DNA of 20,407 nt from a virus, in IMG/VR virus record IMGVR_UViG_3300030107_006028, positions 1 to 20,407 of that record. The stretch is one strand, 5' to 3'. A program made the position numbers and the translations under genes. Positions 1 through 19,462 of the stretch are shown here, piece after piece; position 1 is the stretch's first letter; each line of letters starts with the position of its first letter. Below the pieces are notes generated by a model that saw only the letters and a list, made by a program, of their open reading frames with translations, ran no database searches and had not been told where the DNA came from.

Positions 1-270
1 GATGCAGATTTATTTTTAAGATATGATTATGAGAGTGGTGATGCACCTAGACCTGCAGCATATCCTTTTGACTCATCAAAAGTTGTTGCAGTTTATGGAA
101 CATCAACATATGGCACAGGTACATATGGTGGAACATCACAACCCCTTGTTCGTCAACCAGTTGAAGGTTCAGGGTTTGCAGTTGCATTAAGAGTAAACGA
201 TGGTGGCACAACAGCACCATATTCATTAAAAGGTTTTGGATTAGAATATCAAGTAGGAGCAAGAAGATAA
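1..270 (+). CDS. Phage tail protein, C-terminal fragment (tail tubular protein B / stabilisation-protein-like)
   Basis: The frame is open from base 1 to a TAA at 268-270 and gives the last 89 residues of a protein that begins outside the window. The fragment is rich in Gly, Thr, Tyr and Ser, as expected for beta-structured tail proteins. It ends with GFGLEYQVGARR, a kind of ending I associate from memory with the tail tubular or stabilisation protein of marine podoviruses. The fibre gene starts on the base right after its stop, so the two are almost certainly co-transcribed. In T7-like phages the tail tubular B (nozzle) gene also lies near the fibre and internal virion genes, which fits this position. 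Too little is present to be sure of the family; another tail or adhesin protein is possible. Confidence 0.55.
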   Translation, partial: DADLFLRYDYESGDAPRPAAYPFDSSKVVAVYGTSTYGTGTYGGTSQPLVRQPVEGSGFAVALRVNDGGTTAPYSLKGFGLEYQVGARR

Positions 271-3159
271 ATGGGAGCAACGTATACAAGACAGTCCACG
301 TATACTGACGGTGACGTTATACAGGCATCCGATACTAATGACGAGTTTAACCAGTTATTAGCCGCCTTTGCCGCAAGTACAGGACATACACATGATGGCA
401 CTACTGCTGAAGGTGGTCCTATAACTAAAATGCTTGGAACATCACTTACGCTTGGTGATGGCACAGCAGGAACAGATATTACTGTAACCTTTGATGGTGA
501 AAGTAATGATGGTGTTCTTAAATGGATGGAAGATGAAGACTACTTTGAGTTTAGTGATGACATCTTAGTTGCTTCAACAGAAAAGTTACAATTCAGAGAC
601 ACTGCAATATACATTAATTCATCTACAGATGGACAATTAGATTTAGTTGCAGATACAGAAATACAGATTGCGGCCACAACTGTTGATATAAATGGTAACG
701 TTGATATATCAGGAACACTTACAATAGGTAGTGCAGGTATATCAGAAGCAGAATTAGAAATACTTGATGGTGCTACAGTTACAACCACTGAGTTAAATAT
801 AATGGATGGTGACACATCTGCTACTTCAACTACGTTAGCTGATGCTGATAGGGTAGTGGTAAATGATGCTGGCACGATGAAACAAGTTGCATTAACTGAT
901 TTTGAAACATACTTTGAAGGTGCGTTAGATACCTTTAGTTCAGCCATAACTGCTGATGCAGGAGTATCTATTGATAATATTACAATAGATGGCACAGAGA
1001 TAGATTTATCTTCTGGAGATTTGACAGTAGATGTTGCAGGAGATATTAGTCTTGATGCAGATGGTGGTGACATATTTTTTAAAGATGATGGCACAACATT
1101 TGGTAGTGCAACTAATACATCTGGTAACTTAATAATTAAATCAGGAACAACAACAGCATTAACATTTAGTGGTGCTAATGCTACAGTTGCAGGAAATTTA
1201 ACTGTATCAGGTGACTTAACTGTATCAGGTGATGACCTAACTATGGGTACAAACACCAGTGGTCATATTATGGTTGCAGATGGAACTAATTTTAATCCTG
1301 TAGCAGTATCAGGTGATGTAACTATAGCATCAAATGGTGCTGTAACAATAGCAAATGGTGCAGTAGAAACTGCAATGGTAAATGCAAATGTTATTACAGG
1401 ACAAACTGCTGAAACATCTCTTGATACATCTAATGACGTAATACTAATACACGATGCAAGTGCAAGTGCTTTAAGAAAAACTACACTAGCATCTATATCA
1501 TCTGCTCTTGGTGGTATCACAGATGTTGTTGCTGATACTTCACCACAGTTAGGTGGTAATCTAGATACTAACTCACATAATATACTTATTGATGATGCAC
1601 ATTTTATTGCAGACGAAAATGGTAATGAACAGATTATATTTCAAACTACAGCATCTGCTGTCAATCAGATTGATGTAACAAATGCTGCAACAGGTAATTC
1701 ACCTGAAATATCTGCAACAGGTGGTGATACAAACATTAGTTTAAAACTAACACCAAAAGGTTCAGGTCAAGTTTTACTAGATGGTAATGTGGGTATTGAA
1801 TCAGGTACTATTGATTTAAAGAACTCAGGTTCAAGGTCTAAAATTAATTTTTATTGTGAGTCAGGCAATGCTCATGCACAGGCACTTCAAGCTGCACCAC
1901 ACTCAGAAAGTGCATCAAATACTTTAACACTACCAAGTACAGGTGGTGACGTTGATTTAGTTTCAACAGCATCAACTGCTACACTTACAAACAAAAGTTT
2001 AACAGCACCTATTCTTACAGGGTCATCATCTGCAGCAGGTTCAATACTGTTTAAAGAAGATACTGATAATGGAACAAATGCCGTAACTCTTATTGGTCCT
2101 GCATCTACTGCTGATGTAACTGTTACTTTACCAAATTCTGCAGGTACAGTTGCTCTTACCTCTGACATTCCATCTAGTGGTATATCAAGTGGAAATGTGG
2201 CTACTTTTACAAGTGGTGCAGTAGATAATGATTTTTTACGTATTGACGGAACTTCAATAGAAGGTCGTTCTGCAAGTGAAGTATTAAGTGATATTGGTGG
2301 ACAAGCATCATTAACATTTGGAATCAGTAATACCAATGCCGTTAAAATAGACAGCAGTTCTGTAGCTGATGACGAGTTTGCTAGATTTACAGCTAACGGA
2401 TTAGAAAGTAGAAGCACTTCTGAAGTTAGAAGTGATATAGGATTAGGTACGGCAGCCGTATTAGATACTGGAATATCCAATACGAATGTTGCCAAGTTTA
2501 CAACTGGAGTTGCTGATAATGATTTTCTAAGAGTTGACGGTACATCTATTGAAGGTCGTAGTGCTTCAGAAGTTCTTTCTGATATTAGTGCTGCACCTGC
2601 CGCAGGTGATTCAAATATACTAACTGTAGGTGCTTTGGATAGTGGGTCAATTACATCAGGGTTTGGTAGCATTGATATTGGTTCAAGTGCTTTATCAACA
2701 ACAGGTTCTGTAACATTAGGTGCAACATCTTTTGGTGATAATAATATTACAAATGTTGGTAGTATTGCTTTAGATAGCATTGCATCTGATGCAGGAACTG
2801 GAACGGCTATAACATTTAGTGCAGGTAATGTTCCAAACACACAGACAGCAGGGTCACAAACAGGAAACATAACACCTGACTTTTCACAGTATACTAATTT
2901 TATTTTAACGCTTACAGGCAACATTGTATTGCAAGACCCCGGAGATGAAGTAGCAGGACAATCAGGTATCTTTGTATTTATTCAAGATGGAACTGGTAGC
3001 AGAACATTATCTCACGCAGACGATAGATATTTTGTTGCAGGGGGTACATCTATAACACTATCTACAGGTGCTAATGCCATAGATATTGTGCCGTACTTTG
3101 TACAGGCTGATGGCAAAATTCACTTAGGTGCTGCACAAAAAGCATTTGCAGAAGCATAG
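271..3159 (+). CDS. Repeat-rich tail fibre protein, 962 aa
   Basis: Large acidic protein rich in Ser, Thr, Gly, Asp and Ala, with almost no Cys, typical of extended beta-structured phage fibres. The N-terminus (about residues 1-45) has the pattern common at the virion-attachment end of marine phage fibres (GDVIQASDTNDEFNQL, then GHTHDGT). Residues 161-186 are two tandem 13-residue units with the pattern ELxIxDGxT, seen in many phage fibres. Residues 310-316 repeat TVSGDL. Beta modules at about 539-565 and 606-632 resemble each other (APxS/GPAS...VTLPxSxGxV). Residues 637-772 hold three copies of a roughly 39-residue unit ending in SxSEVxSDI. The final 110 residues (from about 853) form a distinct C-terminal domain with TGNIVLQDP and FVFIQDGTGSRTL. 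The ATG lies immediately after the upstream stop, with AGGAG at 255-259. Probable role: host-surface contact, or the shaft of the adsorption apparatus. Long antisense open frames here are by-products of repetitive codon use. Confidence 0.85.
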   Translation: MGATYTRQSTYTDGDVIQASDTNDEFNQLLAAFAASTGHTHDGTTAEGGPITKMLGTSLTLGDGTAGTDITVTFDGESNDGVLKWMEDEDYFEFSDDILVASTEKLQFRDTAIYINSSTDGQLDLVADTEIQIAATTVDINGNVDISGTLTIGSAGISEAELEILDGATVTTTELNIMDGDTSATSTTLADADRVVVNDAGTMKQVALTDFETYFEGALDTFSSAITADAGVSIDNITIDGTEIDLSSGDLTVDVAGDISLDADGGDIFFKDDGTTFGSATNTSGNLIIKSGTTTALTFSGANATVAGNLTVSGDLTVSGDDLTMGTNTSGHIMVADGTNFNPVAVSGDVTIASNGAVTIANGAVETAMVNANVITGQTAETSLDTSNDVILIHDASASALRKTTLASISSALGGITDVVADTSPQLGGNLDTNSHNILIDDAHFIADENGNEQIIFQTTASAVNQIDVTNAATGNSPEISATGGDTNISLKLTPKGSGQVLLDGNVGIESGTIDLKNSGSRSKINFYCESGNAHAQALQAAPHSESASNTLTLPSTGGDVDLVSTASTATLTNKSLTAPILTGSSSAAGSILFKEDTDNGTNAVTLIGPASTADVTVTLPNSAGTVALTSDIPSSGISSGNVATFTSGAVDNDFLRIDGTSIEGRSASEVLSDIGGQASLTFGISNTNAVKIDSSSVADDEFARFTANGLESRSTSEVRSDIGLGTAAVLDTGISNTNVAKFTTGVADNDFLRVDGTSIEGRSASEVLSDISAAPAAGDSNILTVGALDSGSITSGFGSIDIGSSALSTTGSVTLGATSFGDNNITNVGSIALDSIASDAGTGTAITFSAGNVPNTQTAGSQTGNITPDFSQYTNFILTLTGNIVLQDPGDEVAGQSGIFVFIQDGTGSRTLSHADDRYFVAGGTSITLSTGANAIDIVPYFVQADGKIHLGAAQKAFAEA
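751..828 (+). repeat. Tandem 13-codon repeat (ELxIxDGxT) in the fibre gene
   Basis: Two adjacent 39-bp units, 751-789 and 790-828, encode ELEILDGATVTTT and ELNIMDGDTSATS. They share the ELxIxDGxT core. Similar LDG-type repeats occur in many phage fibres, where they build the shaft. The nucleotide copies have diverged, so this is an old protein-level repeat and not a recent duplication. Confidence 0.75.
1198..1233 (+). repeat. 18-bp tandem duplication in the fibre gene
   Basis: Units 1198-1215 and 1216-1233 differ only at the last base and both encode LTVSGD. The near identity at DNA level suggests recent slippage or recombination that adds or removes one beta-strand repeat of the fibre. Confidence 0.85.
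2179..2586 (+). repeat. Three diverged ~120-bp repeats in the fibre gene
   Basis: Units at 2179-2295, 2320-2439 and 2470-2586 encode residues 637-675, 684-723 and 734-772 of the fibre. Each runs GIS(S/N)xN(V/A), a short variable part, a (D/E)F(L/A)R core, then the ending S(A/T)SEVxSDI. Units one and three are closest (NDFLR(I/V)DGTSIEGRSASEVLSDI in both). The middle unit has diverged (DEFARF, LESRSTSEVRSDI). Synonymous differences between units one and three are numerous, so the similarity is maintained at protein level. Confidence 0.85.
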
Positions 3160-3165
3160 GATAAT

Positions 3166-5697
3166 ATGACAGGTTCTAATTCATTTTGGTTTGCTAATCC
3201 ATCAACAGGGTTTTATCCTGAACAAATATCAAATTCGGTAAGATTAACTGGTGATGCTGATGATACAAAGTTTATTTACACTCCTAGTGGAGATGGCAAT
3301 AAAAAAACTTTTACTTTTTCTGTTTGGGTTAAAAGAACTACTTTTGATTCTAGTAATTCAATGGGTCTACTTAATTGTGATAAACACCCTTATGCACCTG
3401 TTCACCACTTATACTTTAATACTGATGATAAATTATACTATTATTGGGGTGATGGTGGTGCTAGTGGAAGTGAAAGTGGTGCTGTTTATGTAGATAGAGA
3501 GTTTAGAGATGTATCATCTTGGTATCACATAGTTTTAAATTATGATACTACACAATCTACTAAAACAGATAGAATTAGAATTTATGTTAATGGTGAAAGA
3601 CAAACTTTAGTTGCTTCTTATAATGGACCACATGGCGACCACTACCCCACAGAAGATTATGTATCTAGCAATGTTAATATGAATGAGGATGGAGTGCCAA
3701 TAATCTTTGGTGCTATGGGCAATGGTGGTTCTTATCTTCGGTTTTTTTCAGGTTATATGGCTGAATTAAATTATATTGATGGCACAAATTATGATGCTGA
3801 TAATTTTGGTCAAACCAAAGAGGGGGTGTGGATACCAAAAGAAATAAGTGGATTATCTTATGGAACACACGGATGTCGTTTAAAATTTCAAGATAGTTCT
3901 AGTTTGGGTGATGACACAAGTGGTGAGGGGAATGATAGAACAGCAAGTAATTTGGTAGCATCAGACCAAGTGCCAGATAGTCCAACTAATAATTTTTGCA
4001 CTTTAAATTCAATAGCACCAGTTATAGCTAATACACCAACATATTCTCAGGGTAATTTAAGAATACAATCAACTTGGGATTCAAATTGGCGAAGTGGTAT
4101 TTCTAATTTTAAGATGACATCTGGTAAATGGTATTTTGAATTTAGACCTATCGGTGGGTCATATCAAATTGTAGGAATAGCATCAGATGAATCAGATGCA
4201 ACTGCTACAAGTGCTACTCAATATTTAGGAAAAACTACTACTGGTTATGGCTATCAATCAAGTGATGGAACTGTTAATAATAATGCTTCTGCTGTTTATA
4301 CAGGTTCTGCTTATGGCACAAGTAATACTATTGGTGTAGCTGTTGATTTAGACAATAATAAACTATACTTTGCTGAAGATAATACATGGCAAAATTCAGG
4401 TGACCCAACTTCTGGTTCAACTGGAACTGGAGCAGTAAGTATAACAGATAAAGATGGTTATTTTATTGTGGTTAGTGTATATGAAACAAGTTCAATAGGT
4501 CAGTTAAATTTTGGTCAAGATTCAACTTTTAAAGGAACAATATCAGCAGGGAATAATGCAGATGGAAATGGTATAGGTGATTTTGTTTATGCTCCTCCGT
4601 CAGGATATTTAGCTTTATGTAGTAGCAATCTGCCAGAACCAACTATAGGACCTAATTCTATTGAACAAGCTGATGATTTTTTTGATATTGTAACTTGGAC
4701 TGGAAATGGGTCATCCCAAAATATTACATCTGCAAATTTTGCATCTGATTTAGTTTGGACAAAAACAACTTCAGGGGGTTCTGATGGTGTTGACCATAAA
4801 ATAATTGATAGTGTTAGAGGTGATACAAAAACATTAGAATCATCATCAACAGACCAAGAAACAACAGATAGTGGTTCAGTATCTAGTATAACATCTACTG
4901 GATTTTCAGTAGGTAATTATGCTGGAGTTAATGCAAGTAGTAGAGGATATATTGCTTGGCTATGGAAAGGTGGCACGACTTCAGGCATAGACACAACAGG
5001 ACAAGATATAACACCTTCTGGCTATACATTTAGTCAAGACGCTGGGTTTAGTATTGTTGCCTATACTGGGAATAAAACTGACCAACAAGGTGTTCCACAT
5101 GGTTTAGGTGCAAAACCTGATTGGGTTGTAATAAAAGATAGAGATAATGGAAGTACACAATGGGTTATAGCATTTCCCCAAATATCAGGAAATGATTATT
5201 ACTATTTTACAAGTGATGCAAAAAGCACGGATAGTGGCAATGTATTTTATTTTACACCAACAACGACAACTGTAGAAATATCTGACCATGATGAGGTAAA
5301 TAAAAATTCAACGAAATATATAATGTATTGTTGGAAAAATGTAGAAAATTATCAAAAAATAGGAACTTACGAAGGAAATGCAAGTGATGACGGCACTTAT
5401 GTTTTTTGTGGTTTTAAACCCAGATTCCTTTGGGTGAAAAATATAGATGCAACTGAATCTGGTGGTGCATCTTGGATTGTTTATGACACAACAAGAAGTT
5501 CAACCAATGTTATGGATGATAGATTATTTTTTAATGCTACTAATGACAATGCTACAAATGCAAACTATAAAATAGATTTTTTATCGAATGGTTTTAAAAT
5601 TAGAGATGGCTCTGCAAACTATGGATTTAACAATGCAAACACCTATGCATTTTATGCTGTAGCTGATCAACCATTTAAATACGCAAACGCAAGATAG
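3166..5697 (+). CDS. Receptor-binding / adhesin-like protein with LamG-like and SPRY-like domains, 843 aa
   Basis: Three regions can be read. Residues about 20-240 resemble a concanavalin A-like LamG domain (FTFSVWVKR, then WYHIVLNYD, then RIRIYVNGERQ). This runs into a block common in marine phage adhesins: an AELNYIDG segment, GVWIPKEISGL, then a region ending TNNFCTLN at 275-281. Residues about 295-490 look SPRY-like (SGKWYFEF, VAVDLDNNKLYFAED, a late LNFGQDSTF). Residues 503-843 hold three related units starting at about 507 (IVTWTGNG), 629 (SIVAYTGN) and 731 (KIGTYEGN). Each continues to a D/FLVWxK-like strand and ends in an aromatic stretch (YIAWLWKGG, YIMYCWKNV, YAFYAVADQP); this is the DUF7483-like pattern as I recall it. 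It starts 7 bp after the fibre gene with only a weak ribosome site. LamG and SPRY folds bind glycans or proteins, so a host-recognition role is likely but inferred. Confidence 0.85.
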   Translation: MTGSNSFWFANPSTGFYPEQISNSVRLTGDADDTKFIYTPSGDGNKKTFTFSVWVKRTTFDSSNSMGLLNCDKHPYAPVHHLYFNTDDKLYYYWGDGGASGSESGAVYVDREFRDVSSWYHIVLNYDTTQSTKTDRIRIYVNGERQTLVASYNGPHGDHYPTEDYVSSNVNMNEDGVPIIFGAMGNGGSYLRFFSGYMAELNYIDGTNYDADNFGQTKEGVWIPKEISGLSYGTHGCRLKFQDSSSLGDDTSGEGNDRTASNLVASDQVPDSPTNNFCTLNSIAPVIANTPTYSQGNLRIQSTWDSNWRSGISNFKMTSGKWYFEFRPIGGSYQIVGIASDESDATATSATQYLGKTTTGYGYQSSDGTVNNNASAVYTGSAYGTSNTIGVAVDLDNNKLYFAEDNTWQNSGDPTSGSTGTGAVSITDKDGYFIVVSVYETSSIGQLNFGQDSTFKGTISAGNNADGNGIGDFVYAPPSGYLALCSSNLPEPTIGPNSIEQADDFFDIVTWTGNGSSQNITSANFASDLVWTKTTSGGSDGVDHKIIDSVRGDTKTLESSSTDQETTDSGSVSSITSTGFSVGNYAGVNASSRGYIAWLWKGGTTSGIDTTGQDITPSGYTFSQDAGFSIVAYTGNKTDQQGVPHGLGAKPDWVVIKDRDNGSTQWVIAFPQISGNDYYYFTSDAKSTDSGNVFYFTPTTTTVEISDHDEVNKNSTKYIMYCWKNVENYQKIGTYEGNASDDGTYVFCGFKPRFLWVKNIDATESGGASWIVYDTTRSSTNVMDDRLFFNATNDNATNANYKIDFLSNGFKIRDGSANYGFNNANTYAFYAVADQPFKYANAR

Positions 5698-5706
5698 GAG
5701 AAAATA

Positions 5707-6264
5707 ATGCCGTGGAAATTAGGCAATACAGTAATTAAAGCAGGTAGCAGTTGGGTTGATGCTAGTAAAATAAGACACCCAAGTAATTGGTCTGTATGGT
5801 CGGATGACCAAAAGAAAGCTGTTGGTCTTGCATGGTCTAACCCATCACCACAAGATGCAGTATTTGATAATCGTTTTTATTCTGGCAGACAAGCAGATGG
5901 CACTTTAATAGAAAAAAGTTTAGCCGATACTCTATGGGTTGATGAAAGTGGTAATCCAAAAAATGACCCTTTAACAGGCAAACAAGGTGTAACAAAAGGA
6001 CTTAAAAATAGTTGGAAAGACAGTACCAAAAAATATGCCCATGCTCTTTTAGAAAAAACAGATTGGTATGTAACTCGCAAAGCTGAATCAAGTACAGCTA
6101 TACCAAGCGATATTTCTACCTACCGAGCCAGTGTTAGAACGGCTACTAAAACAATAGAAGATAAGATAGATGCTTGTGATACTCTTGCTAAATTTATAGC
6201 ATTGTTTGATGTGCCTTCAGGTGGTAAAGCACCGATATATGACTTTCCAGATGAGGTTAGTTAA
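5707..6264 (+). CDS. Conserved fibre-associated protein (possible tail fibre accessory or chaperone), 185 aa
   Basis: A strong AGGAG at 5696-5700 precedes the ATG. The protein starts with MPWKLGNTVIKAGSSWVDAS and IRHPSNW, and has a central motif DNRFYSGRQADGTLIEKSL. Next come DPLTGKQGVTKGLK, a helical stretch with DWYVTRKAE, and a C-terminal helix ending in a GKAPIYDFPDEVS tail. I recognise this layout from memory in marine phages, where it often lies right after fibre genes, but I cannot assign a biochemical function. The position suggests help with fibre folding or attachment, as small genes after fibres do in lambda and T4. That is analogy, not homology I can demonstrate. Its stop overlaps the next start (TAATG, 6262-6266), implying coupled translation. 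Confidence 0.8.
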   Translation: MPWKLGNTVIKAGSSWVDASKIRHPSNWSVWSDDQKKAVGLAWSNPSPQDAVFDNRFYSGRQADGTLIEKSLADTLWVDESGNPKNDPLTGKQGVTKGLKNSWKDSTKKYAHALLEKTDWYVTRKAESSTAIPSDISTYRASVRTATKTIEDKIDACDTLAKFIALFDVPSGGKAPIYDFPDEVS

Positions 6265-6494
6265 TGGAAATTAGTCCTATACTATTTTGGAATGGAATAC
6301 TTACTCTTGTAATAGCCCCTGTTATATGGGTCTTTCGTAGTGTCTTGACAGAAATCAAACGGCTGGATATACTATTAAATAAGACACGTGAAGAGTATGC
6401 CAAAAGAGATGACGTAAAAGAAGAAATGCATAATGTTATAGAACATTTGCAACGTCTTGAAGATAAACTAGATAAAATAATAATGAGTAGATAA
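6264..6494 (+). CDS. Small membrane-anchored coiled-coil protein (possible holin or spanin-like)
   Basis: A 76-aa protein with one hydrophobic segment at about residues 4-25 (SPILFWNGILTLVIAPVIWVF), followed by a highly charged helix (about 27-76) with heptad-like Leu and Ile spacing and many Lys, Glu, Asp and Arg. This is a single N-terminal membrane anchor plus coiled coil. Small proteins of this shape in phage late operons include holins, i-spanins and membrane-bound virion assembly factors. No endolysin is adjacent, and an overlapping o-spanin is not seen, so a lysis role is only a possibility. Its start overlaps the upstream stop and its stop overlaps the next start, both as TAATG, which ties its dose to the virion genes. 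Confidence 0.75.
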   Translation: MEISPILFWNGILTLVIAPVIWVFRSVLTEIKRLDILLNKTREEYAKRDDVKEEMHNVIEHLQRLEDKLDKIIMSR

Positions 6495-7861
6495 TGGCTG
6501 AAGAACAAGAAAAAGATGAATCAACAGTACCGTCTTACATAAATCCTAGAGGGGAGTTATCTAAAGTCATAACAGGTGATGTTGAATCTGTGCAAACAAC
6601 ACCGACTTTAATTCAAGGGGATACTCAAGAAACAACAATGCCAACCCAACAAACGTTGGGAACTATGGGGCAAGATCTTACAACTGGAACTGTTAACCAA
6701 CAAAATTTAAAAGTTACTCCTTCCGTACAAGATCAAAATTTAGGTCAAATTGCAAGCATTGAGTCTGTACTTGAAGATGTAGAAAATTTAGGGGGAGCAG
6801 ATTTTGTTACAAAAGAACAACCTTCTTACGCTATAGGGGATATACAAGGACAACTATCAGAGGGAGCTTTAGCTCAAGCCCAAACAGAAAATTTAGATCC
6901 TAGAGGAACAGTACGATATCAATTAGGTGAATTGATGGAAAGTCTTGAAGACGGTAAGCCACTACCTGCATGGGCTTCCCCTGCTGTAAGAAAAGTTACA
7001 GCGATAATGAACCAACGAGGTATGGGGGCATCATCTATGGCAGCGTCAGCCATGATACAGGCTGTAATGGAATCAGGTATACCGATTGCAAGTGCTGATG
7101 CACAAGCATATCAACGTATTCAGTTGCAAAACTTATCAAACAAACAAGCAACAGCGTTAAAAAATGCGGCAACAATTGCATCAATGGACACAGCTAATTT
7201 GAATGCTCGCTTAACAGGGGCTGTACACAATGCACGAAATTTTCTTGCGATTGATACTAAAAACATGGATAATGAACAAAAAGCAAAGTTGTTAAATTAT
7301 CAATCCCTTGTTCAAGGAGCATTTACGGATGCAGCACAAGAAAACACAAGAAAATCTATTAATGCAAAAACCGAAGCTCAAGTAGATATGTTTTATGATG
7401 AATTAGCATCACAAATTGAATCAGCTAACGCTAACAGAGTAGCGGCTATTGAGCAGTTTGAAATATCAGAGGGTAATGCTTTAAATCAGTTTAGTAGACA
7501 GATGGTTGATTCACGTGATAAGTTTGATGCAAATATGAAATTTGCTATTGATCAATCAAACGTTGTATGGCGAAGAGAAGTTAACACAGCTAACACGGCT
7601 GTTCAAAATGAAAGCAATAGAATAAATGTGCAAAATCAATATAATGCTATGCAAAGTGCTTTGAACTCTTTATGGCAATACTACAGAGATAACGCTTCTT
7701 TTAATTTTACTAAATCAGAAAACATAGAAAATAGAAAACACGCCGTAGGTCTTTTGGCTTTAGAAAATTCATACAATAGAGATATATTAAATGAACAAGA
7801 AAAAGGAGATCTAGTAGAACTTCTTGGTTCGTGGGTAATTAATTGGAGTAAGAGAGCATAA
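6494..7861 (+). CDS. Putative internal virion protein, 455 aa
   Basis: The first ~110 residues are low-complexity and rich in Thr, Gln, Gly and Glu, probably disordered. From about 130 the protein is helical. A segment KVTAIMNQRGMGASSMAASAM (about 167-187) is rich in small residues. It is followed by long Ala-, Asn- and Gln-rich helices (about 200-430) with little hydrophobic core, suggesting extended coiled-coil assembly. This composition resembles internal core or DNA-ejection proteins of podoviruses (compare T7 gp14, P22 gp7), but I see no diagnostic motif. It heads a run of five genes ending in two very large ones, which matches the layout of ejectosome gene clusters. The start is fixed by TAATG at 6492-6496; the ribosome site is weak, so coupling is likely. 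Confidence 0.75.
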   Translation: MAEEQEKDESTVPSYINPRGELSKVITGDVESVQTTPTLIQGDTQETTMPTQQTLGTMGQDLTTGTVNQQNLKVTPSVQDQNLGQIASIESVLEDVENLGGADFVTKEQPSYAIGDIQGQLSEGALAQAQTENLDPRGTVRYQLGELMESLEDGKPLPAWASPAVRKVTAIMNQRGMGASSMAASAMIQAVMESGIPIASADAQAYQRIQLQNLSNKQATALKNAATIASMDTANLNARLTGAVHNARNFLAIDTKNMDNEQKAKLLNYQSLVQGAFTDAAQENTRKSINAKTEAQVDMFYDELASQIESANANRVAAIEQFEISEGNALNQFSRQMVDSRDKFDANMKFAIDQSNVVWRREVNTANTAVQNESNRINVQNQYNAMQSALNSLWQYYRDNASFNFTKSENIENRKHAVGLLALENSYNRDILNEQEKGDLVELLGSWVINWSKRA

Positions 7862-8277
7862 TGGATAAAGCATTTAGTTTTTTAGAATCTCTACTTGGTG
7901 TTCCTTATCAAATATTTAAGGATACAACTGATGTAGTTTTTGGGGGCAAACAGTCCAAAGAAAATACTGTAAATTTTTTAGGAAGAACTTTGGGCGAAGC
8001 TATACAAAGCACAAGTGATAAGAATGTTGAGGAATCAGCAAAGTTATTAGATTCGGCTGCAACCCTAATTAAAAGCACACCATCAACAACAGCACAAATG
8101 GCACAAGGACAACCTCTTACATTCAATGATCCACGGTTAAGCACTGCTATGAGAAACCTTATAAATAAAACAAATAACAGAGAATTATTAGAAATTATCT
8201 CTCGTGCTAATTACACACCAAAAGCAGTACGACCTTCTAATCCTACTATACGAGTAACACCTACAAAATTTGGATAA
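7861..8277 (+). CDS. Hypothetical virion-cluster protein, 138 aa
   Basis: I do not recognise a family. The N-terminus (MDKAFSFLESLLGVPYQIF) could form an amphipathic helix. The middle is helical (GRTLGEAIQ, then KLLDSAATLIKS), and the C-terminus is basic and proline-rich (PKAVRPSNPTIRVTPTKFG). The start overlaps the upstream stop as TAATG (7859-7863). The next gene begins 6 bp later. Genes on both sides look like internal virion proteins, so a minor structural role is the simplest guess. Confidence 0.65.
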   Translation: MDKAFSFLESLLGVPYQIFKDTTDVVFGGKQSKENTVNFLGRTLGEAIQSTSDKNVEESAKLLDSAATLIKSTPSTTAQMAQGQPLTFNDPRLSTAMRNLINKTNNRELLEIISRANYTPKAVRPSNPTIRVTPTKFG

Positions 8278-8283
8278 AATATT

Positions 8284-8820
8284 ATGGCATTACCAACTAC
8301 AGACCAAAAAGCTGCGTTAGATTTATTAGCTACAGCACCACCGGGGATTTCCCTCACACAAGAAAACACCAACTATCCTTGGGGCAACCCCCCAAAGCAT
8401 TCTGATCCTGACAAAGCAATGACAGCAGCCATTGATTCGTTAGAAAATCCCACAACAAAAGCAAATCTTTTAAAACTGTTATTTGCAGGAGTATCAATTG
8501 AATCTTTAATTGAAGGCTTTATTCATGTTGGATTTGAAACTGGTAAGTTTTCTTTAGATACTGGGTTGCTTATAAAAGGTCCTTTAGGGTTGTATTTAGC
8601 CAATTTAGCTGAAGAAGAAGGTGTGCCATACAGGTTGTTTGAAAATGAGAATGCAATTGAAGAAGATGATTTGGATGATGCACATGTGTTAAAAATTATG
8701 AAAATGAATAATCCAGCTATGTTTCAAGTGCTTCAAAATAAAGTTAACCAATCACTCCGACAAGGTAAAAAATTACCTAAAGATGTTGATAAAGGTTTTG
8801 TTAATAAGGAGAGCAAATAA
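8284..8820 (+). CDS. Putative virion structural protein, 178 aa
   Basis: The N-terminal part holds a conserved-looking block: PPGISLTQENTNYPWGNPP, then a helix with DKAMTAAIDSLE, LLKLLFAGVSIESLIEG and a moderately hydrophobic stretch at about 80-110 ending in a LYLANLAEEEGVPY segment. The C-terminal ~70 residues are charged (acidic around 120-135, then Lys-rich). From memory, proteins with the PPGxSLTxE...PWxxPP start followed by an amphipathic helical region occur widely in marine podoviruses and T4-like cyanophages and are labelled virion structural proteins. I rely on that recollection only. The ribosome site before 8284 is weak. The stop overlaps the next start (TAATG, 8818-8822). Confidence 0.7.
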   Translation: MALPTTDQKAALDLLATAPPGISLTQENTNYPWGNPPKHSDPDKAMTAAIDSLENPTTKANLLKLLFAGVSIESLIEGFIHVGFETGKFSLDTGLLIKGPLGLYLANLAEEEGVPYRLFENENAIEEDDLDDAHVLKIMKMNNPAMFQVLQNKVNQSLRQGKKLPKDVDKGFVNKESK

Positions 8821-11447
8821 TGGCAGGGGGCATGAATTTTGTACGATTTATGAAGGGTGCTCTAAAGGGAGAAATAGCACACCAAGAAGCTGTTGCTAAA
8901 GCAGATGCTGATCGTAAAAAAAGAGAACAAGAGGCAGCCGATAAAAATAAAGAGTTTCTTCAAGGATTAATTTCAAGTATACCTTTTGAAAAAATAAAAC
9001 CAGAAAATGTTTCATTACTAGGAAATATTAAAACAATAGAAGATGTTGCAAACGTTTATAGCGATCTTGAAGAAAAAAACGATACTGAAGGTTTAACATT
9101 TCTAACAGAACAAATTTTTACTTTGGGCAAAGAGAACCCAAAAATATTTGAAAATATAAATTGGGAAAAGATAGGAAGTGTAACAGACATAAACAGTGCA
9201 TATGCTTATTTGGAGAATAATCCAGACTTATTTAAAAATATAAAAGGTAAAGACGAAGAACAGACACAAGAACAAAAAGATATTTTTAGTATAACTTCAA
9301 GTGCACTAAAAGAAATGAATAAATTATATGGTGAAGGTGTAACATTTAAAGGAGAAACCCCAGATTTTGCTAATCTTGATATGTACAAGCCAGAAACAAT
9401 TAATATACTTCAAGCTTTTCTTGAAACAGCCGTTCCTCCTAAAGATGACGAAACCCCACCAGAAGAAAAACCAGATAATTATATATTTCCTAATAATAAA
9501 GGAGAAATGGAGACACATTTATTTAAAGATTCAGGGAATGGTTACCAAGATATTTTATCAAACATGATTACAATGACAGACAAATTAATACAAAATGGGT
9601 ATAATTTTAAAGATAACGACCTTCAAGTAAGGTATTTAAATGAAATGAATAGACAATTTACGAGAGCAAGTCAACTTTACAGGGATAGAGAAAGAAATGA
9701 AGGGGTTATTGACGGAAATGAAGTGTTAGATATTTCATCTTACGTAGATAAATTTAACAATGATTCTGAATACCCTATGTTAAAATTTGCATCATCATTT
9801 TTTAAAAGTATGGAAAGGGGAACAAAATTTAAAGTTACTAGAATCATAAGTGAGGATGGTGAAACCTTAAAAAAAGAAGTTAAAAATAACCTACCTGTAG
9901 AAACAGAAAGCGAATTTAAAGATCTAGCTGCTACATTAAATGTAACACCAGAAACACTATATAAATTAAATGCACATCTTCAAGTTGATGAAAACGATAT
10001 AACCCTATTTACAAAAGCCCAAACACTAACACAAAATGTAAAAGGGTTGTTCCGAACTCAAAACGGTGTGGTAAAAAATAGGTTGGCTACTGAAGAACTC
10101 CCTAGAGAATTAAGAAAAAATTTATTTATACAATTAGAGAGTTTATTTGAAGGTACTACTGATGCAGAAATTGAAAATAAAATAGCTGTTTTACAAATTT
10201 TAAGTAATATTGCACCCCCTATTTTAAAAAGAGGACAAAGTTCATACGGTATTCCAGAACGCATGGAAAAGTATTTAATAAGCGTAGCGTCAAGTGTAAC
10301 AGATAAAAGTATAACCGATGTATCTACTGCTTTAGGATTGATCAATAAAAAGGCAGATATGGGTAAAAATATAATGGATTTAGTTGATTCCCAATTAAGT
10401 TTGTTTTCAGAAAATCCAAAATTTCCAACAGGTGCTGTCAAAGAGCTTATAATAGGTATAAGAGGGTTTATGTCTAGCGAAGGGCAACTTGATCAAATAA
10501 AAGATTTTCTTATGAATGGTTCTCAATCAACCCCAGCAAATAATATGTATTTGTTTAGAAGAGAAGCTTTTGAATCTGATAAAGATTTTAATGACTCAGT
10601 TGATCTTGCAGCAGAAATAATTGCAAAAAACAGTTACGATGACGATAATAAGTTTGATGTACAACTTGCACGTTCAGTAACAAATGAAGTTTTTTTAGCC
10701 TATGCAATAGCAAAGTTTAATGATGAGGGCGGCAGGCTGTCAAACCAAGATTACTCAATAAACGTAAGAGCAACTTTGGGTGGGGCTTTGAGTAATAGGG
10801 AGCAAGCACAAGGACATCTGTTAACTGTTAAAAAACGTTTTCAATATGACTACTTAAAATTTAAAAATCTTAGATTTAACTTAAGTAAATTAAATGTTAG
10901 AGATTATAGTTCAGCCACTCCTCAACAAGATGCTCAAGCTTATGCAAATCAGATGATAAGACGATTAGATGCAACAATGACGTACTACAATCTATATGAA
11001 ACCTCTGGAGCAAAAACTGCTGAACGAATAAAAAATTATAAAATAAATGTTACATTACGAAACAATGTGGATAAGTTGAAAGTCACTGACAAATTTATTA
11101 CTAATAAAAATTCTATATACTATGGACAGGGCAAAACCTCAATATTTCAAGTGCTTGATAAAAGATCAGGGCGACCAGTATTTGATGACTACGGTGGATT
11201 GTACGTTGTTAAAATTGACGACAATCGTTATAAAACAATACCACTTAGTGACGTTCCTTTTAGTGGGGGTTCTCAGGCTGAAGATACATCTTCCGAAATA
11301 TCCTCTACACAAACTGCACCAACATATAGAAAATTAGAAAATCCTGTTGGTTCTTTTGCATGGGAAGGAATTGACTCAAACGGTGATCCTTTTTACCTTA
11401 CACAAGAACAGTATGATGCTTTAAATATAAAAGAAGAGAAAAAATAA
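8820..11447 (+). CDS. Large putative internal / ejection virion protein, 875 aa
   Basis: A good AAGGAG precedes the start. Residues about 12-50 form a charged Ala-, Lys- and Glu-rich helix, likely a coiled coil. The rest is polar, Lys-, Asn- and Glu-rich and predicted mostly helical, with acidic low-complexity stretches near 205-220 (a DDETPPEEKPD run). The last 100 residues look more globular and end with SFAWEGIDSNGDPFYLTQEQ and a charged tail. I see no signal peptide, transmembrane segment or enzyme motif. Size and position (between small virion genes and a 1669-aa gene) fit the middle-sized ejection protein of podoviruses (compare T7 gp15), but this is by analogy only. TAATG links it to genes on both sides (8818-8822, 11445-11449). 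Confidence 0.75.
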   Translation: MAGGMNFVRFMKGALKGEIAHQEAVAKADADRKKREQEAADKNKEFLQGLISSIPFEKIKPENVSLLGNIKTIEDVANVYSDLEEKNDTEGLTFLTEQIFTLGKENPKIFENINWEKIGSVTDINSAYAYLENNPDLFKNIKGKDEEQTQEQKDIFSITSSALKEMNKLYGEGVTFKGETPDFANLDMYKPETINILQAFLETAVPPKDDETPPEEKPDNYIFPNNKGEMETHLFKDSGNGYQDILSNMITMTDKLIQNGYNFKDNDLQVRYLNEMNRQFTRASQLYRDRERNEGVIDGNEVLDISSYVDKFNNDSEYPMLKFASSFFKSMERGTKFKVTRIISEDGETLKKEVKNNLPVETESEFKDLAATLNVTPETLYKLNAHLQVDENDITLFTKAQTLTQNVKGLFRTQNGVVKNRLATEELPRELRKNLFIQLESLFEGTTDAEIENKIAVLQILSNIAPPILKRGQSSYGIPERMEKYLISVASSVTDKSITDVSTALGLINKKADMGKNIMDLVDSQLSLFSENPKFPTGAVKELIIGIRGFMSSEGQLDQIKDFLMNGSQSTPANNMYLFRREAFESDKDFNDSVDLAAEIIAKNSYDDDNKFDVQLARSVTNEVFLAYAIAKFNDEGGRLSNQDYSINVRATLGGALSNREQAQGHLLTVKKRFQYDYLKFKNLRFNLSKLNVRDYSSATPQQDAQAYANQMIRRLDATMTYYNLYETSGAKTAERIKNYKINVTLRNNVDKLKVTDKFITNKNSIYYGQGKTSIFQVLDKRSGRPVFDDYGGLYVVKIDDNRYKTIPLSDVPFSGGSQAEDTSSEISSTQTAPTYRKLENPVGSFAWEGIDSNGDPFYLTQEQYDALNIKEEKK

Positions 11448-14400
11448 TGGCTGAAGAGCTTCCACAAAATAACCAAGAAGATAACACTGCAATAGAGACT
11501 CCTGTAACAAAAACTATAAAGCAACAGGCTGATGAGCTAGTTACAGAAATAAAAGATATAGCTGTAGAGTCTCCAGAATCATCAGTTGCTCCTACCTCAA
11601 TAGGTGCAGCACAGTTAAAAGAGGAAGCTGAGGAAGATATAAAACAACAAACAACTCCAAAACCTGTTGTTGATTTAAATGAATTAATATCGTCCGATAA
11701 ACCTTTAACAGAATTTGAAAATGTTCCAGATGGCATAACAAAAGAAAATTTAAGCGTTGCACGATATTATTCACAAGCTAAAAAAAATAACGTAGAATTA
11801 GATCCAGAAAAAGAAAAGCAATATGCTAAAATTTTAAAAGGCATGATAGAAAAGGTAAATCTTGCAGAACAACAATCTCAATTAGATATCCCTCAATTTC
11901 CTATTCCCTTTGCAGATAAATTTGGTGATTTAAGATCAGAGTTTGATTATAACGTAATACCACTTATGCCAAACTCAAAAAAAGCACTTTATGAAAATAG
12001 AAAAAATTTAAAAAACTTTATGATTGCAATGAAAACGGTGGGCTCTGAAGGAGATATAGAAGTTACTAAAAATTTTTTAGAAACAAAACCTCTTGCTGCT
12101 GACGTTTTACAGAAACACTTTGTAACTGGTAAATTTTTTACAGAAATAAGACGTGAGTTTGCTGGTATGGCTAATGGACTTGATTCTATGGCTAATGCCA
12201 CTGGTCGCATAGGAAAAGATGCAATACAATCTTTTTTTAAATATATGAACGATAACGAACAGTTTCCTCATCCCCTTACTTTTTTTAAAAAAGAATCAAT
12301 AAATAGAAGACGTGAGCATTTGGATTGGTTGAGTGACGATAGATGGGTTGATAGTCATTACAAAAGATTAAATGATTATATTGAAAGAAAATTTATTGAA
12401 GATAATGGTCAAGAAGTTTTTGACAAACTTTCTCCTGAGCAAAAAAAACAATTAGTTGTAAGCCCTGAAGAAGCTACACAACTTTATAATTTTGCTTATG
12501 CAGATCAAAGTATGTTGGAGACTATTGGTAATGCTATAGTAGTTAACAGTGGTGTAACAACAGGATTTGTTGCTGGATCACGACTTTTAAAACTACCACT
12601 GCGTCTGTTAGGAAAAAATGAAACTCCTAGAGATTTTTATATACGAATGGATATGGAGAGAAGACGTGCAGGGCTTGTTAATTTACCCACAACAGAATAC
12701 ATAAAGTATATACATGGCACAGCCCTTGAAGGAACAACAAGTAATGTTTTTAAAAAAACATATTTATTTTTTAATAAAATGCGTCTTGATCAAAAAGGAG
12801 AAGTAGGGTTTTTTAGCACAATTAATCAACAAAAAAACATTAATCCTAAACTTATTGATGATTTAAAAGATGCAGAAATTAAATTAATAGATGCTAGAAG
12901 CACTCTTAGCAACAAATCAAAAATAAATATAGCTGAAAAAAATTTAACAAAAGCTGAAAATGATTATATAAAAGCTTTAGTAAGAGAAAACCCTATTGAT
13001 CCTTCTAATCTTATTATAATTCCAAAACAATATCTTGCAAAATTAACTGGTATGGAAGCATTTCCTTCAGCCATGCAGGGGATAGTATTTAATATGTTCG
13101 CTGACCCAGAAGACCCTGCCCAATTAGAAAACATGAGATTTATGTCATCATTAGCATACCTAACTTCAGCTACTGGAGTTGCTGGAGCTACAGGAAGATT
13201 CGGAGCAAACTTTTTGGGTAGATTTGAAGTTTTTAGTGATATTGGATATACGACAAAACAAATGATTGATACTATGACAGGAATGTTTGATCGTACAGGA
13301 ATAACAATTCCAAAATTAATAAATGCTAATATTGCTGAAATAAGAATATCTGATGTACCGGGTGGACCTAAACGAGAGTTAACGGCTAGTGAGTATAACG
13401 GATTTATGCAATTGCAACAAATATTTAGTAGGCTGTCTCCTGAAACTCAACTTCAATCTGAAAAAAATAGACAAGCATTAGCTTCACGTATAAAAAAGGT
13501 TAAAGCCATAGGTTTTAAAGATGAAGAAACAGAACAATTTATTTTAGAAAATTTAAAATTAAGTTTTGCTGAATCTAGTTCTGTTTTAGCATTTCACACT
13601 ACTGGTGTAAAAATTGCAACACATCTTGGATTTCGTGATGTTACAAAAGTATCTGAAAAATTATTAAATAGTATTAAACACACCGAAAGGGCTGAAAAAC
13701 GATTGTTAGCTCATACCATGATAATGGACGAATTGACTAAACAATTTACAACACGTAGTCCAAATCTTAGTGAAAAAGAACGAGAAGGGTTTACTGACGT
13801 TATTAATTTCATTAGGAGTGTAAACTCAGGTTTAGCAAGAAGTATTGAAGAGAAAAAACTCAATGATGCTGCAAGTTTAAGAGCTCTGAAGGAAACATTT
13901 GCAAGTTCAGAGCTTGTAGGAAAAAGCACAGAAGAGATAGTGGCTATAGCAGAAAATTTATTTAATGCACAAAAAGTTGTAGGATTGCTTGGGTTAAAAC
14001 AGTCATTATCTTTTGAAAATTTTATAAAGTTACAACAAGATAATTTAAATGGTTTAGCCACACTAAATAATGAACTTTTGGAAAATATTAGTAAAACAAT
14101 TGCTGGACATAATTTTAAAGGAGCTAATGTAGAATCCATAAGAAAAGTTGCATCCGATATATTTCAAGTAACCCATACCCATAAACAAAAAATGAATGAG
14201 GAATTGTACGGAACTCTTAATAACTTTGAAAAAGTTGACGCAACAGAAGTGTACAACGCTGTGCTTTCTTTACAAAAAAAATCTAGTTTTGCTGATGGCA
14301 TAGCCGTGGATAACTTGTTAAGAGATTTTGCCCCTGATTCACAATTTGCAAATAGCATTCAAGGCAAAAACCTTGTTAAATTTGCAAATGAGGGTGCTAA

Positions 14401-16821: not shown

Positions 16822-17293
16822 CTATACTCTCCAACATATTTATCTTAACGTTGTAACAATCAGCTTTAAAACGAAATTTGTTGTCAGGGTCAATGCTACC
16901 TTTTTTATGAAAGGTGGCTTTCTTAAAATACTCATCCTTAGTTATCTTTCCTAAAATCCAAGCCCTAGAAAAATCATTTAACACACGTACAAATACGTAC
17001 ATATCACATTTTTGTTTTGTGCCGTGTGCAGCTATACTGCAATCGTATGTATGCAAAGGAGCAGAGTTGCAACGCTTAGTCTTAACGTCAACACGTGTTG
17101 TATCATTTAACGTAAGATCGTAATCATAGGTATTATCTTCTTTCGCCCCAAGTTCGTCAGCGACAACAACTTCCCCAATAAACCCAGCTAAGTTGCCCCC
17201 ACCGTTTGTAATAGAGTTAGCAAGTCTGCCCATCTCTACGGCTTTCTGTCGTGCTCGTATGAGTTGACCACCTGTAACTTCTATTTCTTTCAT
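16814..17293 (-). CDS. PD-(D/E)XK nuclease-like protein, 159 aa
   Basis: The middle of the protein carries the signature of the restriction-endonuclease-like fold. GFIGE puts a Glu at 41 at the end of the first core helix, YDYDL gives Asp 57 and 59, and RVDVKTK gives Asp 69 and Lys 71 as the (D/E)xK pair. A hydrophobic strand follows (CDMYVFVRV, about 96-104), then AWILGKITKDEYF. Such nucleases cut or process DNA using divalent metal; the specific substrate cannot be told. The start (ATGA, 17290-17293) overlaps the ribonucleotide reductase stop, and AGGAG stands 7 bases upstream, so it is co-expressed with that enzyme. A role in host DNA breakdown or in phage recombination or packaging is possible. 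It could also be an inactive or structural relative, though the key residues appear intact. Confidence 0.8.
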   Translation of the reverse strand: MKEIEVTGGQLIRARQKAVEMGRLANSITNGGGNLAGFIGEVVVADELGAKEDNTYDYDLTLNDTTRVDVKTKRCNSAPLHTYDCSIAAHGTKQKCDMYVFVRVLNDFSRAWILGKITKDEYFKKATFHKKGSIDPDNKFRFKADCYNVKINMLESIDA

Positions 17294-19224: not shown

Positions 19225-19462
19225 TTTTCTTAGTCTCCTTTTCAGGTTCTGCTGGCTTGACAAAAAACTTTTGCAACATTTCAAGTTTATCGTGGTAGTC
19301 AGCAATTCTACCCAACTCAATCTCAATAACATTCTGTATATCTTGGTGTTCAGGTTCACCTATTCCTGTTGCTCTATTTAACAATACTTCAACATTAGCT
19401 ATGTGTTTGTTGATTACCCCGGTTAAATACGATATTTGTGCTTTAACTAATAATTCTCTCAT
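19214..19462 (-). CDS. Conserved hypothetical helical protein, 82 aa
   Basis: Nearly all-helical small protein: LLVKAQISYLTGVINKHIANVEV, a GIGEPEHQDI turn, then a second helix IEIELGRIADYHDKLEMLQKFF and a charged tail (PAEPEKETKKNDK). From memory, proteins with the order helix, GIGEhxD turn, ELxxIAxxxxKLExLxK helix recur in marine phages, including T4-like cyanophages, without known function. AAGGAG lies 6 bases before the ATG, a strong site. It overlaps nrdJ by 11 bp at its 3' end. Two helices joined by a short turn suggest a helical hairpin or dimer. A function tied to DNA metabolism is only suggested by its neighbours. Confidence 0.8.
   Translation of the reverse strand: MRELLVKAQISYLTGVINKHIANVEVLLNRATGIGEPEHQDIQNVIEIELGRIADYHDKLEMLQKFFVKPAEPEKETKKNDK
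19235..19240 (-). promoter_or_regulatory. Shine-Dalgarno that sets the nrdJ start
   Basis: AAGGAG on the minus strand, 10 bases before the ATG at 19224. No comparable site precedes the longer alternative start at 19359, which would also put 45 residues of nrdJ inside the neighbouring gene. Confidence 0.7.

Follow-up and report, generated by a model that had tools for sequence, protein, structure and literature searches.

The protein encoded directly behind the tail fibre gene of this aquatic phage is probably an exchangeable receptor-binding head of that fibre, plugged onto the fibre tip by its first peptide. The window, i.e. the whole stretch of 20,407 nucleotides that was analysed, is a complete virus record (20.4 kb) and apparently a fragment of a genome. 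What we observed comprises the anatomy of the locus, the folds and the C-terminal units of the head, a linkage in both directions between the head and a C-terminal domain of the fibre (FCT), a first head peptide whose similarity tracks that of the FCT, a drop in identity near the start of the head, and, at the start of other heads, similar peptides. From the sequences we infer that the first ~12 residues dock on the FCT; the head itself would bind the receptor. The parts of the locus are:

271..3159 (+), tail fibre, 962 aa; its N-terminal part resembles fibre starts in other phages
2860..3156 (+), fibre C-terminal domain (FCT, a label coined here), ~90 residues, about fibre residues 864-952; proposed head docking site
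3166..5697 (+), putative head (receptor-binding protein, adhesin), 843 aa, LamG-SPRY-U1-U2-U3 (from ORF, Pfam and AlphaFold2)
3166..3201 (+), proposed docking peptide MTGSNSFWFANP, head residues 1-12
3211..3900 (+), LamG/pentraxin-like domain, head residues 16-245 (fold match 20-277)
3991..4647 (+), SPRY domain, head residues 276-494; lowest conservation of the domains among 61 homologues
4672..5031 (+), U1, head residues 503-622, first of the C-terminal units; initial third of DUF7483
5032..5346 (+), U2, head residues 623-727, second of the C-terminal units
5347..5694 (+), U3, head residues 728-843 with PFKYANAR at the end, third of the C-terminal units; highest conservation of the five domains compared
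5707..6264 (+), tail-fibre-assembly-like protein (PHROG 4912, E 6e-6, 43 residues); possible cassette chaperone

The head ORF spans exactly 3166-5697 (+) and is separated from the fibre ORF by 6 bases, in agreement with the initial annotation, which had placed a composite adhesin with a LamG-like head, an SPRY-like middle and three C-terminal repeats directly after the fibre. Both named folds were recovered by structure prediction. The AlphaFold2 model of the head alone reached a pLDDT of 87 and a pTM of 0.90, with residues 1-13 below pLDDT 50, and its confident parts were beta-rich. SPRY was found by Pfam (PF00622, E 6.6e-8, 33.1 bits versus a cut-off of 26.3), and the modelled domain (276-489) resembled the Ash2L SPRY domain 5f6k_B (Z 23.0, rmsd 1.8, 171 aligned). 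The LamG-like domain was recognised by its fold, there being no Pfam LamG match in the head sequence at E 0.1: modelled residues 20-277 matched 4dqa, a putative carbohydrate-binding protein (Z 19.9, rmsd 2.7, 202 aligned), and residues 21-274 matched C-reactive protein 1gnh_A (Z 17.5, rmsd 2.8, 195 aligned).

The three C-terminal units were confirmed by profile-profile comparison (99.0, 98.7, and 97.8%; E 4e-18, 4e-16, and 9e-13), with less than 1% for any unit profile against the LamG and SPRY profiles; the starts proposed initially (507, 629, and 731) were right within a few residues. Within the window protein alone and with composition correction off, U1 matched U2 (E 7e-8) and U3 (E 4e-6), and U2 versus U3 was not significant (E 0.23). 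Pfam models the three units as one 330-position domain, DUF7483 (PF24299; head residues 503-836, E 7.6e-78, 262.4 bits versus a cut-off of 27). On the evidence of these sequence profiles, DUF7483 is a set of three repeats and not a single domain. The divergence between the units is old: the order LamG-SPRY-U1-U2-U3 was found in 75 of 128 ORFs and U1-U2-U3 alone in 21, the order of the trio being nearly fixed. A variable number of units as a receptor-switching device was not supported: all surveyed ORFs with units carried whole trios (CRP-406 a second one), with the sole exception of C72C1, which reads U1-U1-U2-U3-U2-U3, then SPRY and U1-U2-U3. No clear match to DUF7483 was found among solved structures (best Z 5.0, rmsd 4.7, 85 aligned, which is not proof of a new fold), by Foldseek (best E 3e-3), or with a DUF7483 sequence profile, for which the matches were marginal (kappa-carrageenase, E 0.0045).

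The head family is already catalogued and common. It occurred in 68 of 50,697 phage records and in at least 588 IMG/VR stretches, and a scan of bacterial genomes gave 36 loci, mostly on MAG contigs and spread over many phyla. Marine-phage proteins of DUF7483 and of PHROG 19943, 24898, and 27411 have the same domain order as the window head. Single-gene forms in Roseobacter phage CRP-811, Methylophilales phage MEP301, and cyanophage SS120-1 were 31-36% identical to it over nearly the full length, whereas in Pelagibacter phages HTVC011P and Greip the LamG-SPRY-DUF7483 protein is split over two genes. These relatives are annotated as virion structural, hypothetical, tail fiber, lectin, or SPRY proteins, and in the records examined neither the DUF7483 triplication nor the FCT partner is mentioned. 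No paper using the term 'DUF7483' was found in open-licence PMC text, and no description of a fibre-head joint of this kind in the titles and abstract beginnings of the open-licence PMC papers listed. Against the phage collection, window bases 1-12000 gave just three short megablast matches, and tblastn at E 1e-5 found nothing for the protein of 1669 aa at 11447.

The FCT has no convincing Pfam match, and its sequence profile matched no solved structure at E 1; several PHROG families match it, many of them named tail fiber protein. In a Pfam search at E 0.1 the fibre had no match, to a T4gp10-like docking domain or otherwise. The domain lay 6-17 residues from the protein end in all 68 ORFs found. 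In a sample anchored on the FCT (82 ORFs, of which 16 were too short and 66 had at least 700 bp downstream), an SPRY/DUF7483 gene came next in 54 of 66 and, in six, an ORF that begins as LamG and is cut off by the contig edge, mostly within 3-22 bp; in the other six neither followed. Six contigs (8 ORFs) were common to this and the adhesin-anchored sample; without them, 52 of 58 FCT ORFs preceded the adhesin. Conversely, in 60 of 94 adhesin loci with upstream DNA the LamG gene had an FCT ORF ending no more than 700 bp away, and none was detected within that distance in 34. A short N-terminal head extension accompanied the FCT (62/72 versus 1/33 for other N-termini; loci anchored on the FCT were left out, as were genes starting less than 700 bp from the locus start), and ten heads had the extension without FCT. 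The type of N-terminus was assigned by profile offset, a regular expression having misclassified heads with SCRF, SARF, or SLMF. In a tree-aware version of this test, leaving out identical or short (<150) LamG cores, the seven supported independent pairs split into 2.3 the same way, 0 opposite, and 4.7 without difference, which is not significant and underpowered.

What is new here is the FCT, with a similarity that tracks head residues 1-12 but not LamG, SPRY, or the units. Over 77 FCT-head pairs, excluding heads without an SPRY or unit match, FCTs below 80 residues, pairs identical in LamG+FCT, and N-terminal extensions shorter than 8 or longer than 45 residues, rho between FCT and head residues 1-12 was 0.51 (0/999 shuffles), versus 0.05 for residue 13 to LamG, -0.10 for LamG, 0.00 for SPRY, and -0.06 for U3. 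In the 49 adhesin-anchored pairs rho was 0.30 (0/999). The FCT also correlated with the downstream gene (0.33, n=57), not significantly once similar FCTs were removed. A correlation of SPRY with the downstream gene (0.31, 2/999) is not predicted by a clean two-block picture.

Seven contigs carried an FCT 71-97% identical to that of the window next to head domains about 30-45% identical; where the FCTs were almost alike, identity broke near codons 9-19, DNA identity falling at 3190-3249. Compared with the window, (i) L110 had an FCT of 97% and LamG 43, SPRY 39, U1 45, U2 38, and U3 41%, with its fibre start (32%) and downstream gene (38%) diverged as much as the head; (ii) L114 had 84% in the first fibre block (155/300 residues aligned), 86 in the FCT, and 36 in LamG; and (iii) L116 had 78% in the fibre start (247/300), 83 in the FCT, and 36 in LamG. 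Three of the contigs, not all, had the fibre start and the gene ahead of the fibre in common with the window. Five further contigs bore other heads after the FCT, and the first 12 residues of these resembled the starts found on heads whose FCTs are closest. This likeness had been seen by eye before it was scored against 799 N-termini free of the adhesins: none of the background scored as high for four of the five, and for the head of L172 one did on mean score and three on best score. The heads of L162 and L169 are near-identical, hence the five represent four cases. The head in L160 is glycine-rich, with a weak match, below cut-off, to the gp38 adhesin family. Of the six FCT ORFs not followed by the adhesin, that of L186 had no adjoining head-like gene. 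The divergence of the head beside a retained FCT supports the earlier proposal that this gene is a candidate host-range determinant, within the 20.4-kb fragment; since the window is apparently part of a genome, another adhesin may be encoded elsewhere.

Part of the FCT-peptide signal could come from linkage, as the FCT-encoding gene adjoins the peptide and the correlation faded gradually from residue 9 to 36, being zero by residues 29-36. The head would then be attached elsewhere, and its first codons would be similar merely by adjoining the fibre gene, with recombination entering just after them. Removal of similar FCTs weakened the signal as well (rho 0.17, n=30, 2/999; 0.19, n=17, 28/999). 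As the whole explanation we nevertheless regard linkage as unlikely: the windowed correlation peaked at residues 5-12 (0.54) and not at 1-8 (0.32; these residues carry less information because residue 1 is always Met), other heads retain the peptide after the FCT, and heads without a detectable upstream FCT often start directly at LamG or bear a different N-terminus.

It had been suggested initially that receptor specificity lies in the three units, which would have diverged under selection for new receptors and bind at several sites. The units are real, U2 was the domain least like its homologues when only the window protein was compared (mean identity LamG 0.346, SPRY 0.347, U1 0.360, U2 0.286, U3 0.404), and single units weakly resembled lectin-like beta-sandwiches (galectin Z 4.7), although a Z below 8 may reflect merely a common arrangement. 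Among 61 fused homologues, by contrast, SPRY was the least conserved domain and U3 the most (mean pairwise identity U1 0.43, U2 0.41, U3 0.48, LamG 0.40, SPRY 0.33), the units being about as conserved as LamG or more so; SPRY was the lowest-identity domain in 1,214 of 1,829 pairs, U2 in 266, and U3 in 10. Per-domain identity thus gives no support to the units as the fastest-changing part and, together with the nearly fixed order of the trio, makes their role as receptor-switching part improbable. A virion structural protein without receptor role, e.g. a tail decoration under fast sequence drift, appears more improbable still. The name of PHROG 19943 (virion structural protein) would suit it, as would the weak, uncorrected host-label trends in 15 pelagiphages with stated hosts (permutations equal to or above the observed value out of 999: core 37, SPRY 56, U1 264, U2 61, U3 88; HTVC041P, with its host written HTCC1063, was left out, and for the three phages with two copies the best-matching copy was taken). 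It is at odds with the lectin-like folds, the position after the fibre, a head that diverges next to a conserved FCT, and the replacement of the head by other proteins, including the glycine-rich one of L160.

For the plugged-on head, the proposed working is as follows. The upstream-encoded fibre ends in the FCT, which would serve as a socket to which head residues ~1-12 may bind. The LamG-like and SPRY beta-sandwiches, borne with the conserved three-unit DUF7483 array, would touch the cell surface, probably at glycans or outer-membrane proteins, and the small downstream gene product may help assembly. Replacement of the head body with FCT and docking peptide kept would change host specificity and leave the joint intact. 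A broader idea, which we put forward tentatively, is a plug-socket code: FCT and ~12-residue peptide might let short- and long-tailed aquatic phages swap whole ~830-residue heads, including an unrelated gp38-like glycine-rich one, each keeping its own joint, so that cognate pairs and not head homology would decide which heads can be mounted. Few of the receptor-binding proteins that abundant ocean phages use are known to have been identified. Should the joint be real, a gene that follows a fibre ending in an FCT could be read, in many uncultured phages, as coding for the host-recognition head; the part that varies could be closely bounded, and exchange of host recognition could be tested from sequence.

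In under-recruiting islands of marine phages, the named genes found most often include those for lectin-like, carbohydrate-binding, and tail-fibre proteins (PMC3909814, excerpt), and a hypervariable region of Polarivirus skadi takes in a protein with a lectin domain and its uncharacterised neighbour (PMC10504331, excerpt); in these excerpts, no split into joint and head is described for this protein family. Like the proposed head, gp38 of T2/S16/PP01-type phages is a separate receptor-binding protein at the fibre tip (there on gp37), and, as in gp38 systems, the head gene immediately follows that of the distal fibre. The N-terminus of gp38 must match the fibre, PP01 gp38 being functional on T2 gp37 only with the N-terminal 113 residues of T2 (PMC12892980, excerpt), whereas for the window head the match to the fibre C-terminus is seen as sequence tracking. 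Furthermore, gp38 has polyglycine helices and its N-terminal part is longer, whereas the window head consists of LamG-SPRY-DUF7483 behind a proposed plug of ~12 residues; Pfam GP38 had no match in it at E 0.1, and it lacks the glycine-rich polyglycine-helix character. Similarly, in K1-5 and SP6 a second receptor-binding protein is attached via a short N-terminal peptide that is conserved and measures 7 and 11 residues, an attachment also proposed for the branched receptor-binding proteins of Klebsiella phages (PMC6872550, excerpt). The socket in those phages is a T4gp10-like domain or an adapter protein, whereas that of the window head would be the extreme C-terminus of the fibre itself.

The initial annotation named the product of the open reading frame at 3166–5697 (+) as the window's best candidate for setting host range. 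The frame, encoding 843 residues, was found as annotated, and a Pfam search detected both SPRY and DUF7483 (PF24299) in its product, the adhesin or head. In an AlphaFold2 model built from 61 sequences (pLDDT 87, pTM 0.90; pLDDT below 50 at residues 1–13 and 344–350), residues 20–277 resembled carbohydrate-binding and pentraxin folds (Z 17–20) and residues 276–489 SPRY domains (Z about 23) among solved structures, bearing out the annotated LamG-like and SPRY-like parts. The three proposed C-terminal units are real as well: U1, U2 and U3 (residues 503–622, 623–727 and 728–843; jointly DUF7483) matched one another with hhalign probabilities of 97.8–99.0%, as against less than 1% for LamG and SPRY profiles used as negative controls. 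The DUF7483 part modelled alone (pLDDT 88.7) drew structure matches in three stretches (501–602, 605–725 and 727–835 in protein numbering), in agreement with the three-unit division. No clear relative of this model was found among solved structures; the best match was a phage tailspike (Z 5.0, rmsd 4.7, 85 aligned), and a galectin gave Z 4.7.

The window spans an entire virus record (20,407 bases) and is apparently a fragment, since its ends are open. Two further features are:
11447–16456, +, open reading frame of a 1669-aa protein
17290–19359, −, B12-dependent (class II) ribonucleotide reductase, with an RNR-II insertion domain
A tblastn search of 50,697 phage records with the 1669-aa protein gave nothing at E 1e-5; by position and size we take it to be, probably, an internal virion protein. 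The reductase gene shares its opposite-strand block with genes for DUF3310 and phage endonuclease I.

The head belongs to an already known family. Relatives occurred in 68 of 50,697 phage records (by organism name, 26 Pelagibacter and 17 Synechococcus phages), and an IMG/VR profile scan yielded at least 588 among the 600 pattern-matched stretches listed, the best 80 of which formed our IMG/VR adhesin sample. The order LamG-SPRY-U1-U2-U3 was present in 75 of 128 ORFs examined, LamG-SPRY alone in 22 and U1-U2-U3 alone in 21. The two partial types adjoin in some phages, among them HTVC011P, Greip and HTVC103P; the trio of units can therefore be a separate protein. CRP-406 (3330–6740 of its locus) and C72C1 (249–4670) carry extra DUF7483 units in the interval between LamG and SPRY, in C72C1 as an irregular run U1-U1-U2-U3-U2-U3 before SPRY.

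Among 61 fused heads, mean pairwise identity was 0.40 for LamG, 0.33 for SPRY, 0.43 for U1, 0.41 for U2 and 0.48 for U3. SPRY was the least identical domain in 1,214 of 1,829 pairs and U3 in 10; for the 108 pairs more than 50% identical overall, SPRY was lowest in 63 and U1 in 28. SPRY also had the most gaps relative to the window protein (15%), which may inflate its apparent divergence. When homologues were compared with the window protein only, U2 was lowest (0.286; LamG 0.346, SPRY 0.347, U1 0.360, U3 0.404). The earlier suggestion that the units had diverged under pressure to change receptor is unsupported, because the differences between U1, U2 and U3 are older than the family. One pair of heads (L036 and L082) is 21% identical in SPRY, 80% in U3 and 54% in LamG, a possible exchange of SPRY alone.

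The preceding fibre gene (271–3159) ends in a domain of about 90 residues, here termed FCT, the proposed docking site of the head. The proteins in which FCT recurs C-terminally range from 73 to 1,030 residues in length, some being truncated at a contig end; FCT lies 6–17 residues from the protein end in all 68 ORFs found. Of 35 members compared, 26 matched PHROG 4757, to whose profile C-terminus the window FCT aligns, and many matched PHROG tail-fibre families; no convincing Pfam match was obtained (two families, one member each, E above 0.006). The fibre is 75% identical to a Pelagibacter phage HTVC115P structural protein over 22% of its length, in two pieces, and its residues 239–651 match HTVC008M (34%).

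FCT and head genes are linked from both directions. Of the 94 loci in the adhesin-anchored sample that include upstream DNA, 60 have an FCT ORF whose end is no more than 700 bp from the LamG gene; in about 10 of these the spacing was some 610–650 bp, filled in the loci inspected by a gene of about 200 residues. Conversely, an FCT-anchored scan of 80 loci gave 82 FCT ORFs, 16 of which had less than 700 bp downstream and were set aside. After the remaining 66, the next gene encoded SPRY/DUF7483 in 54 cases and neither SPRY/DUF7483 nor LamG in six. In the other six, the contig ends inside an ORF that starts with LamG; two of these open ORFs (537 and 753 residues) have a length at which SPRY could have been expected to match. 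Excluding six contigs (eight ORFs) that overlap the adhesin sample, the count was 52 of 58. The queries were eight FCTs from adhesin-linked loci, and the scan thus samples that branch of FCT. Two loci (L028 and L077) have two adhesin copies each, every copy preceded by its own FCT gene. These phages are near-identical, and their two full cassettes, with different heads, start about 4.3 kb apart.

In raw counts, the presence of FCT goes with the type of N-terminus of the head. With relatedness left uncontrolled, FCT lay within 720 bp upstream of 62 of 72 heads with a short extension, and upstream of 1 of 33 with other N-termini (none 19, SGVW-type 6, long extension 8), the sole exception (L095) having an over-called start. 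Extension-less heads come mostly from pelagiphages, and when pairs were drawn with the tree taken into account, 7 were supported (2.3 going the same way and 0 the opposite way), too small a number for a decision. Four same-family heads (L051, L053, L084 and L090) have an SGVW-containing N-terminus and no FCT detectable upstream, possibly a second docking type.

Across 77 FCT-head pairs, FCT similarity was correlated with that of head residues 1–12, the first peptide (rho 0.51, 0/999 permutations). No correlation was seen with residues 13 to LamG (0.05) or with LamG (−0.10), SPRY (0.00), U1 (−0.09), U2 (−0.17) or U3 (−0.06). In eight-residue windows the values were 0.32 (1–8), 0.54 (5–12), 0.18 (9–16) and 0.20 (13–20), dropping to 0.00 at 29–36. 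LamG and the three units showed mutual correlation (0.31–0.37 between LamG and each unit); the value for LamG and SPRY was 0.19. The first-peptide correlation was 0.30 (0/999) in the 49 adhesin-anchored pairs, and 0.17 (n = 30, 2/999) or 0.19 (n = 17, 28/999) once similar FCTs were removed. The gene after the head was correlated with SPRY (0.31) and with FCT (0.33, n = 57), the latter not significantly after the same removal.

Among contigs with nearly the window's FCT, FCT identity was 97% in L110, 87% in L112, 86% in L113 and L114, 84% in L115, 83% in L116 (one contig with L065) and 71% in L117; L111 is without head DNA. Head domains of these seven were 30–45% identical to the window's, save two short alignments (L115 U2, 50% over 36 residues; L116 SPRY, 48% over 23). 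In six contigs compared in 30-base bins, DNA identity was mostly 63–93% (few bins 50–56%) over FCT and the first eight codons, 60–70% at 3190–3219 and 43–56% at 3220–3249. FCT and first peptide are thus retained while the head body differs. Three of the contigs resembled the window in flanking genes as well: L112 (70% for the gene preceding the fibre, 57% for the fibre start), L114 (67%, 84%) and L116 (79%, 78%; small gene at 6264, 73%). L113 had the two downstream genes in common with the window (52% and 57%); in L110 the fibre start was not in common (32%) and the downstream gene was 38% identical. The fibre shaft is variable too, being poorly conserved among these contigs.

Five of six adhesin-less FCT loci (L127, L160, L162, L169 and L172) encode a different protein next; the sixth, L186, has no such protein. 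The L160 protein is glycine-rich with a weak GP38 match, and those of L162 and L169 are near-identical. In their first 12 residues (e.g. MPMFGSQWFANP and MTMFSSFWFLQE), these other heads are similar to the heads with the closest FCTs, a likeness spotted before it was scored. For four of the five, 0 of 799 background N-termini scored equally well; for L172, 1 of 799 did on mean score and 3 of 799 on best score. The gene that follows is tail-fibre-assembly-like in L172 (Pfam Phage_tail_APC and PHROG) and, by a weak PHROG 4912 match, in L127; in L169 it only weakly matches a PHROG of unknown function also matched by the window's gene.

The best-supported reading is a peptide-mounted, exchangeable fibre-tip head, which would sit on the fibre tip, held by a short peptide, its body being swapped between phages. 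Three points appear new from these comparisons: the proposed joint of FCT and peptide, the triplication within DUF7483, and the order of the domains by variability; no description of them was found in the open-licence literature searched. Earlier reports already place marine phage lectin-like and fibre genes in hypervariable islands (PMC3909814, PMC10504331) and describe host-recognition modules shared by distant Alteromonas phages (PMC10579305). In the gp37-gp38 tip, gp38 requires an N-terminus fitting its gp37 (PMC12892980), and the proposed mounting would work like that match. Neither sequence nor fold makes the head a gp38. The mounting would also resemble the way in which branched receptor-binding proteins dock by short peptides (PMC6872550).
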